Assembly: GCF_023073355.1 (NCBI RefSeq)
Contig: NZ_JADPJI010000002.1
Span: 620,001 to 684,000 of the forward strand
Length of the DNA stretch: 64,000 nucleotides
DNA from: Bradyrhizobium sp. 199
GTDB taxonomy: Bacteria > Pseudomonadota > Alphaproteobacteria > Rhizobiales > Xanthobacteraceae
Direction: 5' to 3'
Shown here: positions 43,293 to 48,823 of the stretch, piece after piece
Position numbering within the stretch: position 1 is the stretch's first letter
How the letters are laid out: the number at the start of each line of letters is the position of its first letter
Notes under the pieces: model-generated
Seen by the model: the letters and a program-made list of their open reading frames with translations, nothing else
Database searches by the model: none
What the model was told of the DNA's origin: nothing
Made by a program: the position numbers and the translations under genes

Positions 43293-45524
43293 ATGAAGCG
43301 TCTGAAAATCCTGCGGCGGTGGTTTGCACGCAAGCTGGGCTTTGCGCGGCTGATGTGCCTTGCGCTGCTGGTCGTGTTCGCCGCCGCTCGGCTCTGGGAT
43401 CCGCCGCCGATCCAGGAATTGCGGCTGCGTACCTTCGACATGTTCCAGCTGATCGACCCGCGCCACAAGGCGGCGCGGCCGGTCGTTATCGTCGACATCG
43501 ACGACAAGAGCCTTGCGAGGCTCGGCCAGTGGCCGTGGCCGCGCACACGGATCGCCGATCTGATCCAGAACCTCACCAGCAGCGGCGCGGTGGCGATCGG
43601 CTTCGACGTGGTGTTCTCCGAACCCGACCGGCTCAACCCGGATCTGGTTGCGAGTCAGATGCGTTATCTGGATGACGCCACCCGCACCAAGCTGCGCGAG
43701 CTGCCGAGCAACGACCAGGTCCTCGCCGATGCCATCAAGCGCTCGCGCGTCGTGCTGGGCGAGACCGGGCTTCCGGAGGTCTTGTCCGAACTCGATAAAT
43801 CGCTTCCGTTCACGGGGGTGGCGACTCTCGGCGAGGACGGGGCTGAGCGCTTCCTGTTCGAATTCCCCGGCCTGCTCCGCAACGTCCCTGTGATCGAGAA
43901 GGTTGCCGCCGGCCGCGGCCTGTTCTCGATCAGGACCGAGCGTGACGGATTGATCCGCCGCGTGCCCATGATCATGCGCGCCCAGGGCAACATCATGCCC
44001 TCGCTTAGCCTCGAGATCCTGCGGGTCGTCACTGGCACGCCGACATTGCTTGTCCGCACAGACAAGGCGGGCATCAGGTCGATCCGCCTCAAAGGCGTGG
44101 AAGTTCCGACCGACAAGAACGGTCAGCTTTGGGTGCACTATGCGCGCCGGGACCCTTCGATCTACGTTTCCGCGGCCGACGTGCTCGACAACAGCGTGCC
44201 GCCTTCCAAGCTTGCCGGCAAGCTGGTGCTTGTCGGCACCTCCGCGGGGGGATTGAACGACATCAAGACCACGCCGGTGTCCCGGGCCATGCCGGGGGTC
44301 GAGATCCATGCCCAGGTCCTCGAAAGCGTGCTGAGCGGCGCTGTGATCTCGCAACCGAACTACGCGCTTGGCGTCGAATTACTGGCCGCACTGGTCATCG
44401 GCCTGCTCGTCATCATCTTCACGCCGAACCTCGGACCGGTGCGCCTGGTGCTCGTGGGTGCGACCTTCGCCGCCATCCTGGTCGGCGTATCCTGGTTCTT
44501 CTATGCGCAATACCGCTACCTCATCGATTTCACCTATCCGCTGCTCTCGACCACGGCGATCTATTTGACCCTGATCTTTGCCAGCTTCGTGCGCGAGCAG
44601 CGCCAGCGCGTCCAGATCCGCGGGCAGTTCGCGCAATATATGTCGCCGGTTTTGGTCGAGCAGCTGGCGCAGTCGCCGGAAAAGCTCGTGCTCGGCGGCG
44701 AAGAGCGCCAGATGACGATCATGTTCTCGGACGTGCGCGGCTTCACTACGATCTCCGAGAGCTACAAGCACGATCCGCAGGGTCTGATCGCGCTGATGAA
44801 CCGCTTCCTGACGCCGCTGACCGACGTGATCATCGATCAGAAGGGCTATATCGACAAATACATGGGCGACGCCATCATGGCGTTCTGGAATGCGCCGCTC
44901 GACGATGCCGAGCACGAGATCAACGCCTGCGAGGCGGCGATCCAGATGCTGGAGCAGATCGATGCGGTCAACAAGGAGCGCGAGGAGGAGGCCGCCGAGG
45001 GCGGCCATGTCTATATTCCGCTCAATGTCGGCATCGGCCTCAACACCGGCATTGGCGTCGTCGGCAACATGGGCTCCGATCTGAAGAAGAACTATTCGGT
45101 GCTTGGCGATAGTGTGAACCTCGCCTCACGCCTCGAAGGCCAGTCGAAGGAGTACGGCTTTCCCATCATCGTGGGATCCAGGACCGCGCTCGCCGCCAAG
45201 GACAAGTTCGCGATCCTCGAGCTCGACTTCATCATGGTCAAGGGCAAGACCGAGCCGGAGGTGATCTATGCCATCGCCGGCCGCGAGGACGTGATGCATT
45301 CGGCCGCCTTCCAGCGCCTGCGCAACATCACCATCGAGATGCTCGGCTGTTACCGCGGCCGTGACTGGCAGGGCGCGCTGGATGCGATCGAACGCGGCCG
45401 TTGCAGCGAAGACGCCGACACGCTGGAAAAGCTGTTCAGGCTCTATGAGGCCCGCATCAAGGATTTCCAGCTCGATCCGCCGGCCGAGGGCTGGACCGGA
45501 GCGTATGCGCTGCTGACGAAGTAG
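43293..45524 (+). CDS. CHASE2-domain class III adenylate cyclase
   Basis: 743 residues. An N-terminal transmembrane helix (about 19-32), a periplasmic CHASE2 sensor (about 35-350, VVIVDIDDKSLARLGQWPWPR), three helices (about 355-430) and a cytoplasmic cyclase domain (about 470-640). Metal-binding Asp residues lie in IMFSDVRGF (about 480) and GDAIMAFW (about 525); the YIDKYMGD Lys and LGDSVNLASRLE Asp fit ATP as substrate. It probably makes cAMP in response to an envelope signal. It starts 77 bases after the adhesin stop and is likely co-transcribed. Confidence 0.88.
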   Translation: MKRLKILRRWFARKLGFARLMCLALLVVFAAARLWDPPPIQELRLRTFDMFQLIDPRHKAARPVVIVDIDDKSLARLGQWPWPRTRIADLIQNLTSSGAVAIGFDVVFSEPDRLNPDLVASQMRYLDDATRTKLRELPSNDQVLADAIKRSRVVLGETGLPEVLSELDKSLPFTGVATLGEDGAERFLFEFPGLLRNVPVIEKVAAGRGLFSIRTERDGLIRRVPMIMRAQGNIMPSLSLEILRVVTGTPTLLVRTDKAGIRSIRLKGVEVPTDKNGQLWVHYARRDPSIYVSAADVLDNSVPPSKLAGKLVLVGTSAGGLNDIKTTPVSRAMPGVEIHAQVLESVLSGAVISQPNYALGVELLAALVIGLLVIIFTPNLGPVRLVLVGATFAAILVGVSWFFYAQYRYLIDFTYPLLSTTAIYLTLIFASFVREQRQRVQIRGQFAQYMSPVLVEQLAQSPEKLVLGGEERQMTIMFSDVRGFTTISESYKHDPQGLIALMNRFLTPLTDVIIDQKGYIDKYMGDAIMAFWNAPLDDAEHEINACEAAIQMLEQIDAVNKEREEEAAEGGHVYIPLNVGIGLNTGIGVVGNMGSDLKKNYSVLGDSVNLASRLEGQSKEYGFPIIVGSRTALAAKDKFAILELDFIMVKGKTEPEVIYAIAGREDVMHSAAFQRLRNITIEMLGCYRGRDWQGALDAIERGRCSEDADTLEKLFRLYEARIKDFQLDPPAEGWTGAYALLTK

Positions 45525-45595: not shown

Positions 45596-45718
45596 TCCGG
45601 CGTTGATCTCGTCGGCCGCGCCCTTGCGCCAGTGCGTGTAAAGCGTCTCGAGCTCGACGATCTCGAAGCCGATCTCGATGCCCATCTCCTTGAAGCTCTG
45701 CTGCAAAATTCGTTCATC
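45596..45718 (-). pseudogene. Fragment of a peptide ABC transporter substrate-binding protein
   Basis: About 41 codons on the minus strand (DERILQQSFKEMGIEI...WRKGAADEINAG) match the late part of family 5 solute-binding proteins. No start, no continuation and stop codons on either side; the fragment is inverted relative to the neighbouring oppF/oppD remnants, so the region has been rearranged. Confidence 0.65.
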
Positions 45719-45747
45719 CGCAGCGACAGCATCTGGCCGGTGCCGCC

Positions 45748-46134
45748 TTGCGCAATGATGAAGGTGGCCTCAACATCGTCCGCTACATCAGCGATCGCGT
45801 GCTGGTGATGTATCTCGGCGCGGTCGTCGAGCTCGGCCCGGTCGACCAAGTTTGTACCGGCCGGCGCATCCCTACACGCGCGCTTCTAGCTGCGATGCCG
45901 TCTTCCGACCCTGACAGGCGCACCGAAACACCGCCGATCACGGGCGATCCGCCCAATCCGATCGATCGGTCCCCGGGCTGCCGCTTCCATACCCGCTGCC
46001 CGTTTGCGGAGCCGCTCTGCGCAAATGCAACACCAAAGCTCACCGCGCTCGATAGAATGGGCCACGACGCCGCGTGCTACATGGCTGTGCCGGGTTCGGC
46101 TCATAGCCGCGCGCCCAGGGAGAAGACCGCATGA
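45748..46134 (+). pseudogene. oppF/dppF remnant (C-terminal part only)
   Basis: 128 codons corresponding to the C-terminal third of a DppF/OppF ATPase: RYISDRVLVMYLGAVVELGP, then TRALLAAMPSSDPDRRT and the CRFHTRCPFAEPLC oligopeptide-transport tail. The nucleotide-binding core, Walker A, signature and Walker B are all missing, so it cannot work as an ATPase. The stop overlaps the ATG of the next gene. Confidence 0.8.
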
Positions 46135-46328
46135 CGAGACCGTTGCCCAAAGAGATCAAGTCCATCGCGCAAATCGCCGGTGTCCCCGTGGATGACGAGA
46201 TCGCCACCCGCATCTCCAATTCCATCGGACCTGCCTTCGAAGGCTTCGCGACGATCGCCGGCACGCTGCCGTTCGACCTCGAGCCCGCGCTCTATGCGAT
46301 CGCGCAGACTGCGAAGGTCTCGAGATGA
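46131..46328 (+). CDS. AtzG-like (DUF4089, GatC-like) small subunit
   Basis: 65 residues, begins MTRPLPKEIKSIAQIAGVPV. This matches the small AtzG/DUF4089 proteins that form a GatC-like wrap around an AtzE-type amidase and are needed for its stability. ATGA overlaps on both sides (with the oppF remnant and with the amidase gene) show translational coupling. Function inferred from family and from its amidase neighbour. Confidence 0.75.
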   Translation: MTRPLPKEIKSIAQIAGVPVDDEIATRISNSIGPAFEGFATIAGTLPFDLEPALYAIAQTAKVSR

Positions 46329-47740
46329 GCACGGAACCGGAATTGATGACGCTTACCGAGGTCGCGCGCGCGATCGCGATGAAGCAGATGTCCTCGCATG
46401 AGGTGACGCGCGCGCTGCTGCACCGCGTTGCGCAGTGGCAGCCGCATCTCAATGCTTTCATGTCGATCGAGTCGGAGAAGGCTCTGAAGGCCGCCGATGC
46501 CGCTGATGCCGAGCTGGCCAAGGGCGAAGTCCGCGGCCCGCTGCATGGCGTGCCGCTCGCGCACAAGGATATGTATTACGATGCCGGCCACGTCGCGACC
46601 TGCGGCTCGTTGATCCGCCGGGATTTCGTGCCGACCGTCACCTCCACCGCCTTGCAGCGGCTGAAGGATGCCGGCCAGGTCCGCCTCGGCACGCTGCATC
46701 TCGCCGAATTCGCCTATGGCCCGACCGGCCATAACGCCCATTACGGTCCGGTTCGCAATCCCTGGAACGTCGCGCACATCACCGGCGGCTCGTCGTCGGG
46801 CTCGGGCTCGGCGGTCGCGGCACGATTGACCTATGCCGCGCTCGGCTCCGACACCGGCGGTTCGATCCGCATGCCCGCGCATTTCTGCGGCGTCACGGGA
46901 TTGAAGACCACCGTTGGCCGCGTCAGCCGCGCCGGCGCAATGCCGCTGTCGCAATCGCTCGACACCGTCGGCCCGCTCGCCCGCACCGCCGAGGATTGCG
47001 CGCTGCTGCTGGCGCTGATGGCAGGCCCTGATCCCGAGGATACCACCTGCAGCCACGAGCCGCTGTCTGACTATGTTGGCGCGACCAAGGGCTCGCTGAA
47101 GGGCCTCAAGATAGGCGTGCCTGCGTCTTACTATGTCGATGATCTCGAGGGCGAGGTCGCGCGCGTGCTGGACGAGACCATCGCGGTGCTCAAGCGCGAG
47201 GGCGCCGACATCGTCACGGTTGAGCTGCCTGACCAGCGACAATTGTCCGCAGCCAACCTGCTTGTGCTTGCGGCCGAAGCCGCCGCCTTCCACAAGCGCT
47301 GGATGATCGAGCGGCCGCAGGATTATGGCCCACAGGTGTTGATGCGGCTTCAGAACGGGCTCGCGGTCCCCGCGATTACCTATCTCGAGGCAATGCGCTG
47401 GCGCGGACCTGCGCTCGCCGCCCACAACGCTGCGACATCAGGCGTCGACGCGGTGATCGCGCCGGCGTCCCCGGTGCCGGCGCCGACGATCGAGGAGAGC
47501 GACGTCGGTGGCGGGCCAAACGCGCCGGCGCTGTTGCAGCGGCTGACGCTGTTCACCCGTCCGGTGAACTACCTCGGCCTGCCGTCGCTCACGGTACCCT
47601 CTGGCTTCACCAAAGGCGGTCTTCCGATCGGCATGCAGCTGATCGGCCGGTCCTTCGATGAGGCGACCTTGCTCACCATTGGCGCCGCGTTCCAGCGCGC
47701 CACCGATTACCACGACCGGGTACCAAAACTGCCGGCATGA
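46325..47740 (+). CDS. Amidase-signature hydrolase, AtzE-like
   Basis: 471 residues with the Ser-cisSer-Lys triad: Lys81 (LAHKDM), cis-Ser156 (GGSSSGSGSAVAA) and nucleophile Ser180 (GSDTGGSIR), spaced as in FAAH and GatA. Pairs with the AtzG-like protein, so 1-carboxybiuret hydrolase-like or related amide hydrolysis is likely, but substrate is not proven. It is intact inside a decayed peptide-transporter operon and overlaps the oppD remnant at its stop. Confidence 0.85.
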   Translation: MSTEPELMTLTEVARAIAMKQMSSHEVTRALLHRVAQWQPHLNAFMSIESEKALKAADAADAELAKGEVRGPLHGVPLAHKDMYYDAGHVATCGSLIRRDFVPTVTSTALQRLKDAGQVRLGTLHLAEFAYGPTGHNAHYGPVRNPWNVAHITGGSSSGSGSAVAARLTYAALGSDTGGSIRMPAHFCGVTGLKTTVGRVSRAGAMPLSQSLDTVGPLARTAEDCALLLALMAGPDPEDTTCSHEPLSDYVGATKGSLKGLKIGVPASYYVDDLEGEVARVLDETIAVLKREGADIVTVELPDQRQLSAANLLVLAAEAAAFHKRWMIERPQDYGPQVLMRLQNGLAVPAITYLEAMRWRGPALAAHNAATSGVDAVIAPASPVPAPTIEESDVGGGPNAPALLQRLTLFTRPVNYLGLPSLTVPSGFTKGGLPIGMQLIGRSFDEATLLTIGAAFQRATDYHDRVPKLPA

Positions 47741-48445
47741 CAAAGCTCGTCGAGATCTCAGGCCTCAACATCCGCTTCACGAGCGAACGCACAGTCTCTG
47801 CCGTGAACGACCTCAGCTTCTCGCTCGCTGATGGCGAGGTGTTGGGCCTGCTCGGCGAGTCCGGCTCGGGCAAGAGCGTGACCTTGCGCGCGCTGATGCG
47901 GCCATTGCCGAAGAAGCGCACGCAGATTTCGGGCGAGGTCAACGTCATGGGCCGCGACATGCTCGCCATGAACGACGAGGAACCGTCGTCCTTCCGCGGG
48001 CAGGCCGTCTCGAGGATCTTCCAGGAGCCCGCGCTCGCGCTCGACCCGGTTTATGCCAGCGCGCGCAGATCGCCGAAGGCGTCGTGCGCTACGAAGGCAA
48101 GAGTTGCGCGGGGAGCAGGGCGAGTGCGTTGGAGACCGCGTCGCAGTGATCTATGTCGGCCAGATCGTGGAGCAGGGCAGCTTGCGCGATATCGTCCGCT
48201 CGCCCGCGCACCCCTACGCCAAGGGCCTGCTCGCCTCGACCATCCACGGCGCCAAGCGGGGACAACGTCTCGAAACCATCCCCGGCACGCCGCCCTCGCT
48301 TGGCGAAAAGCCCCACAACTGCTCCTTCGCCCCTCGCTGCGCCATGACGCAGCCCCGCTGCCTGGAGCAATTGCCTGCCAAGGTCGAAGTCGGGCCGGGC
48401 CGGGCCGCGCGATGTGTGCTGGCCGAGCAGGCGTTCGCGAGGTAG
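47737..48445 (+). pseudogene. oppD/dppD remnant (frameshifted, internal deletion)
   Basis: The first 107 codons match a DppD/OppD ATPase with Walker A GESGSGKSV, up to QEPALALDPVYA. A frameshift near 48058 is followed by an AQIAEGVVRYEGKS-like stretch, then, after a missing middle part that would hold the signature motif and Walker B, by the C-terminal half in the frame ending at 48445 (VIYVGQIVEQG, APRCAMTQPRC). Inactive as an ATPase. Confidence 0.8.
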
Positions 48446-48553: not shown

Positions 48554-48823
48554 ATGCACATTTCCAATGAAGGCCTGCTTGTCATCCTGTTCGTCGGCCT
48601 GGTTGCCGGCTGGCTCGCCGGCAAGGTGGTGCGCGGGACCGGGTTCGGGATCATCGGCGACATCGTGGTCGGCATCGCCGGCGCGCTGGTGGCGAGCTTC
48701 CTGTTTCCGAAGCTCGGCATTCGTATCGGCACGGGCCTGGTGTCGGAGATCGTCTATTCCGCCATCGGAGCGGTCATCCTGCTGCTGGTGGTGCGGCTGG
48801 TGCGTGGCGGGGGCCGGTTCTAG
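48554..48823 (+). CDS. GlsB/YeaQ/YmgE-family stress membrane protein
   Basis: 89 residues, three transmembrane helices with the family's glycine-rich face (GLVAGWLAGKVVRG, GDIVVGIAGALVASFLF). ATG 48554 is preceded by GGAGAGGG about 10 bases upstream; the longer frame from 48449 is not supported. Family members respond to envelope or acid stress. Confidence 0.8.
   Translation: MHISNEGLLVILFVGLVAGWLAGKVVRGTGFGIIGDIVVGIAGALVASFLFPKLGIRIGTGLVSEIVYSAIGAVILLLVVRLVRGGGRF

Follow-up and report, generated by a model that had tools for sequence, protein, structure and literature searches.

Positions 45,596 to 48,445 of a 64,000-nucleotide stretch of Bradyrhizobium sp. 199 DNA (the window; contig NZ_JADPJI010000002.1, positions 620,001 to 684,000) hold an amidase-signature gene and a small partner gene that lie intact among the fragments of a transporter operon, and the locus is probably an eroded importer operon of the Opp/Dpp type whose enzyme module has been kept. 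Within the genus the importer is lost repeatedly with the same two genes spared, which is ordinary as operon decay and unusual in its recurrence. The explanation we favor, with good confidence, is that the amidase, with a subunit presumed to be GatC-like, performs a role for which this importer is not needed, the importer module being dispensable and the pair under selection.

Both retained genes are complete open reading frames on the plus strand. The small gene (46131–46328) encodes 65 amino acids and the amidase (46325–47740) encodes 471, the latter scoring 373.8 bits with the amidase profile PF01425 (cut-off 27). They are flanked by the C-terminal part of oppF (45769–46134, plus strand; residues ~225–344 of 349, corresponding to the oligo_HPY/OppF C-terminus), which has a locally shifted stretch in its translation, and by two parts of oppD identified by comparison with intact relatives: an N-terminal part (47737–48054, plus strand; residues 1–106) and, in another frame, a C-terminal part (48134–48445, plus strand; residues ~222–320). 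A frameshift and an internal deletion of ~0.27 kb separate these two parts of what is at full length a 327-residue protein. ATGA overlaps join the oppF remnant to the small gene at 46131, the small gene to the amidase at 46325, and the amidase to the oppD remnant at 47737. The initial annotation, made from the letters alone, had described the intact pair, the overlaps on both of its sides, the C-terminal oppF remnant and the doubly damaged oppD in these terms, and all four descriptions hold. It had also described an inverted binding-protein fragment. The fragment is real (45597–45770, minus strand; positions −6431 to −6257 of locus L068 align with −728 to −555 of the window, counted from the amidase start), but the inversion is rejected: the intact binding-protein gene SBP2 lies natively on the minus strand in relatives, divergent from its companion SBP1, and the fragment is therefore an SBP2 remnant in its own orientation. 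The three larger deletions of the window all spare the small gene and the amidase. A functional Opp/Dpp importer is no longer encoded at the locus, since the permeases and SBP1 are gone (no permC was found there), SBP2 is fragmentary, and oppF and oppD are truncated; elsewhere in the window's genome, at E ≤ 1e-60, there is no permB ortholog (the best match has 39% identity) and no SBP1.

The intact form of the operon is read from relatives, in which the gene order is a presumed cyclase gene, SBP2 (minus strand), SBP1, permB, permC, oppF, the small gene, the amidase, oppD, a short gene and prtD; SBP1 and SBP2 are ~50% identical. Beyond the genus, 46 of 119 genomes of the family had a match at E ≤ 1e-120, and the core of oppF, small gene, amidase and oppD is present in 13 of the 15 loci read from these other genera. 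Two genomes from another genus have the pair 285 kb (L306, genome G243) and 244 kb (L308, genome G199) away from the permB ortholog. At first these loci were read as further importer loss, a reading rejected given permB at 244–285 kb; either the pair has moved or the operon has been split, so pair and importer need not be neighbors. More distant amidases (47–51% identical) in Azospirillum, Agrobacterium and Bosea are each preceded by a small overlapping gene, in neighborhoods with TRAP, Pot-type or peptide transporters and oxoprolinase-type enzymes. The small proteins from these three genera align with that of the window at only 22–26% identity, and homology is not claimed; from gene order, a small gene plus amidase appears beside different transporters.

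Importer loss was counted in a genus sample of 195 Bradyrhizobium genomes, 185 of which carry an amidase ortholog (E ≤ 1e-100). The 206 loci compared comprise 180 of those 185 together with 26 new ones from among 80 named loci, the part of 329 that was kept; the five loci left out of the 185 (G001, G054, G016, G141 and G180) all have permB. The comparison with full-operon relatives that the initial annotation had proposed gives 177 loci with permB, permC, oppF and oppD, and 18, the window included, in which the importer is lost and both genes of the pair are retained. Ten of the remaining 11 loci are cut by contig ends, and in the last, from G095, permB lies ~38 kb from the amidase. In that strain (Bradyrhizobium sp. 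DOA9; L125/L268) permC and oppF still stand beside the amidase, and an insertion or rearrangement splits the importer operon. SBP2 alone is missing from three of the importer-bearing loci (L168, L176 and L192). Among the 18 importer-less loci, 0–14% of transporter codons remain, the window having the highest share, and 10 retain no importer codons detectable by tblastn while the pair is still intact. Relocation of the importer was not seen in 17 of the 18 importer-less genomes (L232 left out), where any permB match stays at or below 40% identity and SBP1 gives none at E ≤ 1e-60. The small gene is matched over at least 90% of its length in all 206 loci. Counted by genome, 22 in the genus sample are shown without permB, 17 of which keep the pair and five of which do not. 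One locus, L261 (JAUEPE010000034.1), is titled Frankia sp. RB7 and is of Bradyrhizobium type, with amidase DNA the same as that of G082; either a mistaken title or contamination of the assembly could explain this.

The losses are spread over the phylogeny. A tree of cyclase, amidase and prtD for 180 loci places 17 losses in 16 separate clades, and with all 206 loci the number of loss events is 17 by the three genes together, 15 by the amidase, 15 by the cyclase (17 of the 18 lost tips present) and 14 by prtD (16 present), counts that assume no importer regain. Merging every shared-looking junction by eye leaves 12 events. Junction sequences differ between most importer-less lineages, with some exceptions: the right junction in oppD looks alike in L128, L057, L096 and L232, one inserted gene adjoins the cyclase in both L096 and L121, and the left junctions of L126 and L128 resemble each other. 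L134 and L130 have a common left (upstream) junction; because their right junctions differ, only the upstream loss is clearly common to them. A single inherited break behind all the losses is accordingly rejected. The initial annotation had held that the same broken genes in many lineages would speak against selection on the amidase; importers are indeed broken in many lineages, but the breaks are mostly different ones.

The deletions come close to the pair. In seven loci (L057, L128, L121, L126, L137, L181 and L210) the retained block starts 200–221 bases before the amidase, the small gene itself starting at −194, and the far end of the block lies no more than ~40 bases from the amidase stop; in L210 just 14 bases lie between the cyclase stop and the start of the small gene. 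An inverted repeat (TTTGCG...CGCAAA) lies in the 3′ end of oppF, at about 46003–46025 in the window, and the left deletion ends of L123, L085, L096 and L185 fall at it or within ~11 bases; the repeat is a possible deletion hot spot. At the site of the lost importer, between the cyclase and the pair, L096, L121 and L185 carry a gene of ~2 kb, which we take from its sequence to be TPR/glycosyltransferase-like.

Coding constraint was compared by the ratio of nonsynonymous to synonymous substitution rates (dN/dS). For the amidase of importer-less loci against the nearest intact relative the median is 0.103 and the maximum 0.125 (n = 17), and for the small gene the ratio is 0.133 in importer-less lineages (up to 0.351) versus 0.107 in intact ones (n = 150). 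Against eight relatives, the window amidase has values of 0.05–0.08, the oppD pieces 0.10–0.19 and the oppF remnant 0.19–0.28. The window amidase keeps all 153 positions that are invariant in the other 188 loci; the 18 importer-less loci average 0.5 changes each at these positions (one of them an alignment gap) versus 0.29 for other single tips, with a maximum of 4. The catalytic Lys81, Ser156–158 and Ser180 are kept in 206 of 206 loci. The proposal that selection kept the amidase while the transporter was lost, already put forward in the initial annotation, is thus supported, and extended beyond the window, by recurrent losses with mostly different breakpoints and by an importer-less amidase dN/dS of ~0.1.

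Several observations weigh against this explanation or limit its reach. The 206 loci were ascertained via the amidase, so its retention is partly built in, which limits any claim that the pair is always kept; for the same reason a chance-survival figure of 2e-20 is not used as evidence. Amidase dN/dS is slightly higher in importer-less lineages than in intact comparisons (median 0.074, n = 152). The small gene of the window gives 0.13–0.30 against the eight relatives, overlapping the values of the remnants, and our confidence was lowered slightly because dN/dS does not separate the two. The same remnant codons compared between intact genes have medians of 0.07–0.11 and maxima of 0.15–0.26; the remnants are only modestly relaxed, because their values fall largely inside this intact-gene range, and pairwise dN/dS does not distinguish divergence that preceded the loss from divergence that followed it. 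Either module could be brought back by recombination, which would distort the loss count. Five of the 195 genomes lack importer and pair alike. In three of these (G041, G137 and G165) the cyclase and prtD are kept 1.3–1.5 kb apart and the whole operon is absent, whereas G127 has prtD with no cyclase match and G166 has neither anchor. The three (G041:C102, G137:C47 and G165:C33) are small assemblies of 3.4–4.3 Mb, with no room for the operon between cyclase and prtD. Five of the 10 sampled genomes lacking the amidase at 1e-100 have permB without it. In four of them (G074, G091, G098 and G101) the contig stops short of the place expected for the amidase or within it, and in G091 oppD opens another contig, which puts the amidase in an assembly gap; in G185, which has permB and no amidase in its assembly, the position of the contig end is not known. 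Stop codons in the amidase of other strains had also been named in the initial annotation as evidence against selection, and the outcome is divided: the G141 amidase is frameshifted, lying in two frames beside the importer genes permB and oppD, while the stop flagged in an open frame of G045 lies outside its aligned amidase codons, which passed the no-stop filter.

The window amidase has a history of its own. When the nearest relative was computed segment by segment along the locus, the cyclase was closest to L068 (95%), the spacer, prtD and next genes were closest to L258 or L068 (93–97%), and the remnants and small gene were 89–93% identical to several relatives: L068, L258 or L280 ranked first or nearly so for SBP2, oppF, the C-terminal oppD piece and the small gene, and L090/L043 for the N-terminal oppD piece. 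For the amidase the nearest relative is L219 (Bradyrhizobium sp. 149), itself with an intact operon, at 96% and 94% in its halves versus 90% and 87% to L068. Group-separating sites, numbered from the amidase start and counted with the L068 group first, stand at 30:7 over −1800 to −48 and at 0:19 over −15 to 1568 and are mixed (3:4) beyond 1568; the switch has a Fisher p of 1.5e-9 with boundaries chosen after seeing the data. The left switch falls between 46277 and 46310 and the right end is not sharp, the first contrary site being 48009 with mixed sites after it, and the minimal tract resembling L219 and its allies is 46310–47893, inside a locus that elsewhere mostly resembles L068, L258 and L280. 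Judged from these site patterns, the window amidase looks to have been replaced by homologous recombination from another Bradyrhizobium lineage, with a left end in the small gene and a right end in the oppD remnant.

Such an event raises the possibility that the amidase is sometimes damaged and then renewed by homologous recombination with relatives, its intactness reflecting gene flow. The window would fit, its amidase matching L219 (95%) and its flanks L258 (96%), and the nearest neighbor of the amidase ranking 56th by the flanks. Discordance between amidase and flanks is, however, not significantly different between 15 importer-less and 123 other loci (p = 0.21), which leaves an excess of recombination in importer-less lineages as a group unsupported, and a renewed allele would still need selection to persist. 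We consider gene flow an improbable source of the intactness.

Recent decay is about as improbable, marginally more so: under it, the intact state of the amidase would reflect nothing more than the short time since the importer deletion. The window remnants are still alignable and their dN/dS is only 0.10–0.28, a range that implies that much of their divergence predates the decay. The absence of importer codons from 10 of the 18 importer-less loci, whose pairs are intact, argues against too short a time, as does the comparison of L134 with L130, which have the common upstream junction and amidases that have diverged to a dN of 0.039 and a dS of 0.316, with dN/dS ~0.12. Retention of the stretch for the sake of a regulatory or structural element and not of its proteins, which nearly the same retained block in many lineages might suggest, is very improbable given codon-level constraint on the amidase (dN/dS ~0.1) and the retention of nearly all 153 invariant positions in the 18 importer-less loci.

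The amidase falls below the cut-offs for AtzE (351 versus 425.75 bits for TIGR02715 and 358.8 versus 461 bits for NF006631) and for GatA (311.7 versus 481.1 bits for TIGR00132). Its best sequence match in the PDB is GatA (4wj3_A), followed by 6c62_A, a chain named biuret hydrolase that we take to be AtzE; likewise, the serine assigned as cis-Ser of the Ser-cisSer-Lys set is presumed from its spacing to GatA. The small gene stands directly upstream of the amidase, overlapping it in the window, a position read in 20 loci. No AtzG or GatC family was matched by the small protein at E ≤ 10 in Pfam or NCBIfam (17 members) or in Pfam (19 members), nor was any other convincing Pfam or NCBIfam family, and a profile search with it found no GatC or AtzG chain in the PDB. 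A structural model built from 25 sequences has four helices and a predicted local distance difference test score of 69.9. Foldseek returned no match to this model at E ≤ 0.001; the top match, weak at E 0.74, is the GatC chain 9a62_B, three more of the first six matches are GatC chains, and an AtzG fold match stands at rank 34. With VIA-align, GatC and AtzG chains give Z scores of 3.2–4.4 (9a62_B, 4.4; 6c62_C, 3.4) and unrelated chains 4.0–4.2. The term AtzG-like, used in the initial annotation, is suggested by position, size and a weak, low-confidence fold match and is unsupported by any sequence model; filing the small protein as AtzG was rejected, the fold match at rank 34 being too weak.

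Passages of PMC6219798 describe AtzG as non-catalytic and AtzE as insoluble without it, and describe atzG-atzE-atzH clusters with varied transporters, for which uptake and breakdown of nitrogen compounds is proposed. By analogy, the small protein of the window may be a non-catalytic GatC-like subunit that stabilizes the amidase, as AtzG does for AtzE. The amidase would hydrolyze an amide made inside the cell or entering by another importer, and in several lineages, in which the two genes now follow the cyclase gene directly, their transcription could start from the cyclase promoter. A more specific proposal, which we regard as tentative and rather less likely than the importer-independent role itself, is that the pair makes up a two-protein enzyme that derives from GatCA, has as yet no name and serves a housekeeping function in Bradyrhizobiaceae, for example the removal of an internally generated toxic or waste amide, the importer being an add-on retained in some lineages and discarded in others and the small protein a new family beside GatC and AtzG.

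The locus is bounded in the window by genes that it shares with its relatives. Upstream is the undecayed open reading frame cyc (43293–45524, plus strand), the same neighbor as in relatives, which from its sequence we presume to be CHASE2/cyclase-like. Downstream a small gene (48554–48823, plus strand), with the same start as in the loci of relatives and a product assumed to be YeaQ/GlsB-like, precedes prtD and forms the right-hand anchor. Another amidase-signature gene, on the opposite strand, follows ~1.3 kb past the right end of the window (G000:C5:685264–686586).

The functions of operon enzymes are usually guessed from the adjoining transporter. Here the importer goes and the enzyme stays, repeatedly, which argues that the substrate of the enzyme need not be what this importer brings. 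For study of the enzyme's own job there are 18 genomes without the importer, of which at least two are metagenome assemblies. The locus also adds a case of one gene in a ruined operon that has apparently been renewed by recombination, as well as a candidate new family of partner subunits for amidases. In the literature searched there was no paper combining Bradyrhizobium, amidase, pseudogene, ABC (ATP-binding cassette) transporter and gene loss, and none combining Bradyrhizobium, amidase signature and dipeptide.

Among known systems, AtzE–AtzG, the 1-carboxybiuret hydrolase complex of Pseudomonas sp. ADP (PDB 6c62), resembles the window pair in having a small partner gene directly upstream of the amidase, and differs in that the window amidase falls below the AtzE cut-offs and the small protein matches no AtzG model; no atzD, atzF or atzH homolog is among the named genes of the window operon, for which no separate search was made. 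The atzG-atzE-atzH clusters near ABC transporters offer a parallel in gene content, although the passages of PMC6219798 that deal with them describe no recurrent transporter loss. GatCA, the Asp/Glu-tRNA amidotransferase, is similar in that GatA is the best PDB match of the amidase and GatC the best, if weak, fold match of the small protein, whereas the amidase is below the GatA cut-off and the window operon carries an importer and has no gatB among its genes. Further counterparts are Opp/Dpp operons with a built-in amidase, in which permB, permC, oppF and oppD accompany the pair, as in 177 of the 206 loci; the window departs from them in having neither permeases nor SBP1, a mere fragment of SBP2 and two broken ATPase genes around the intact pair.

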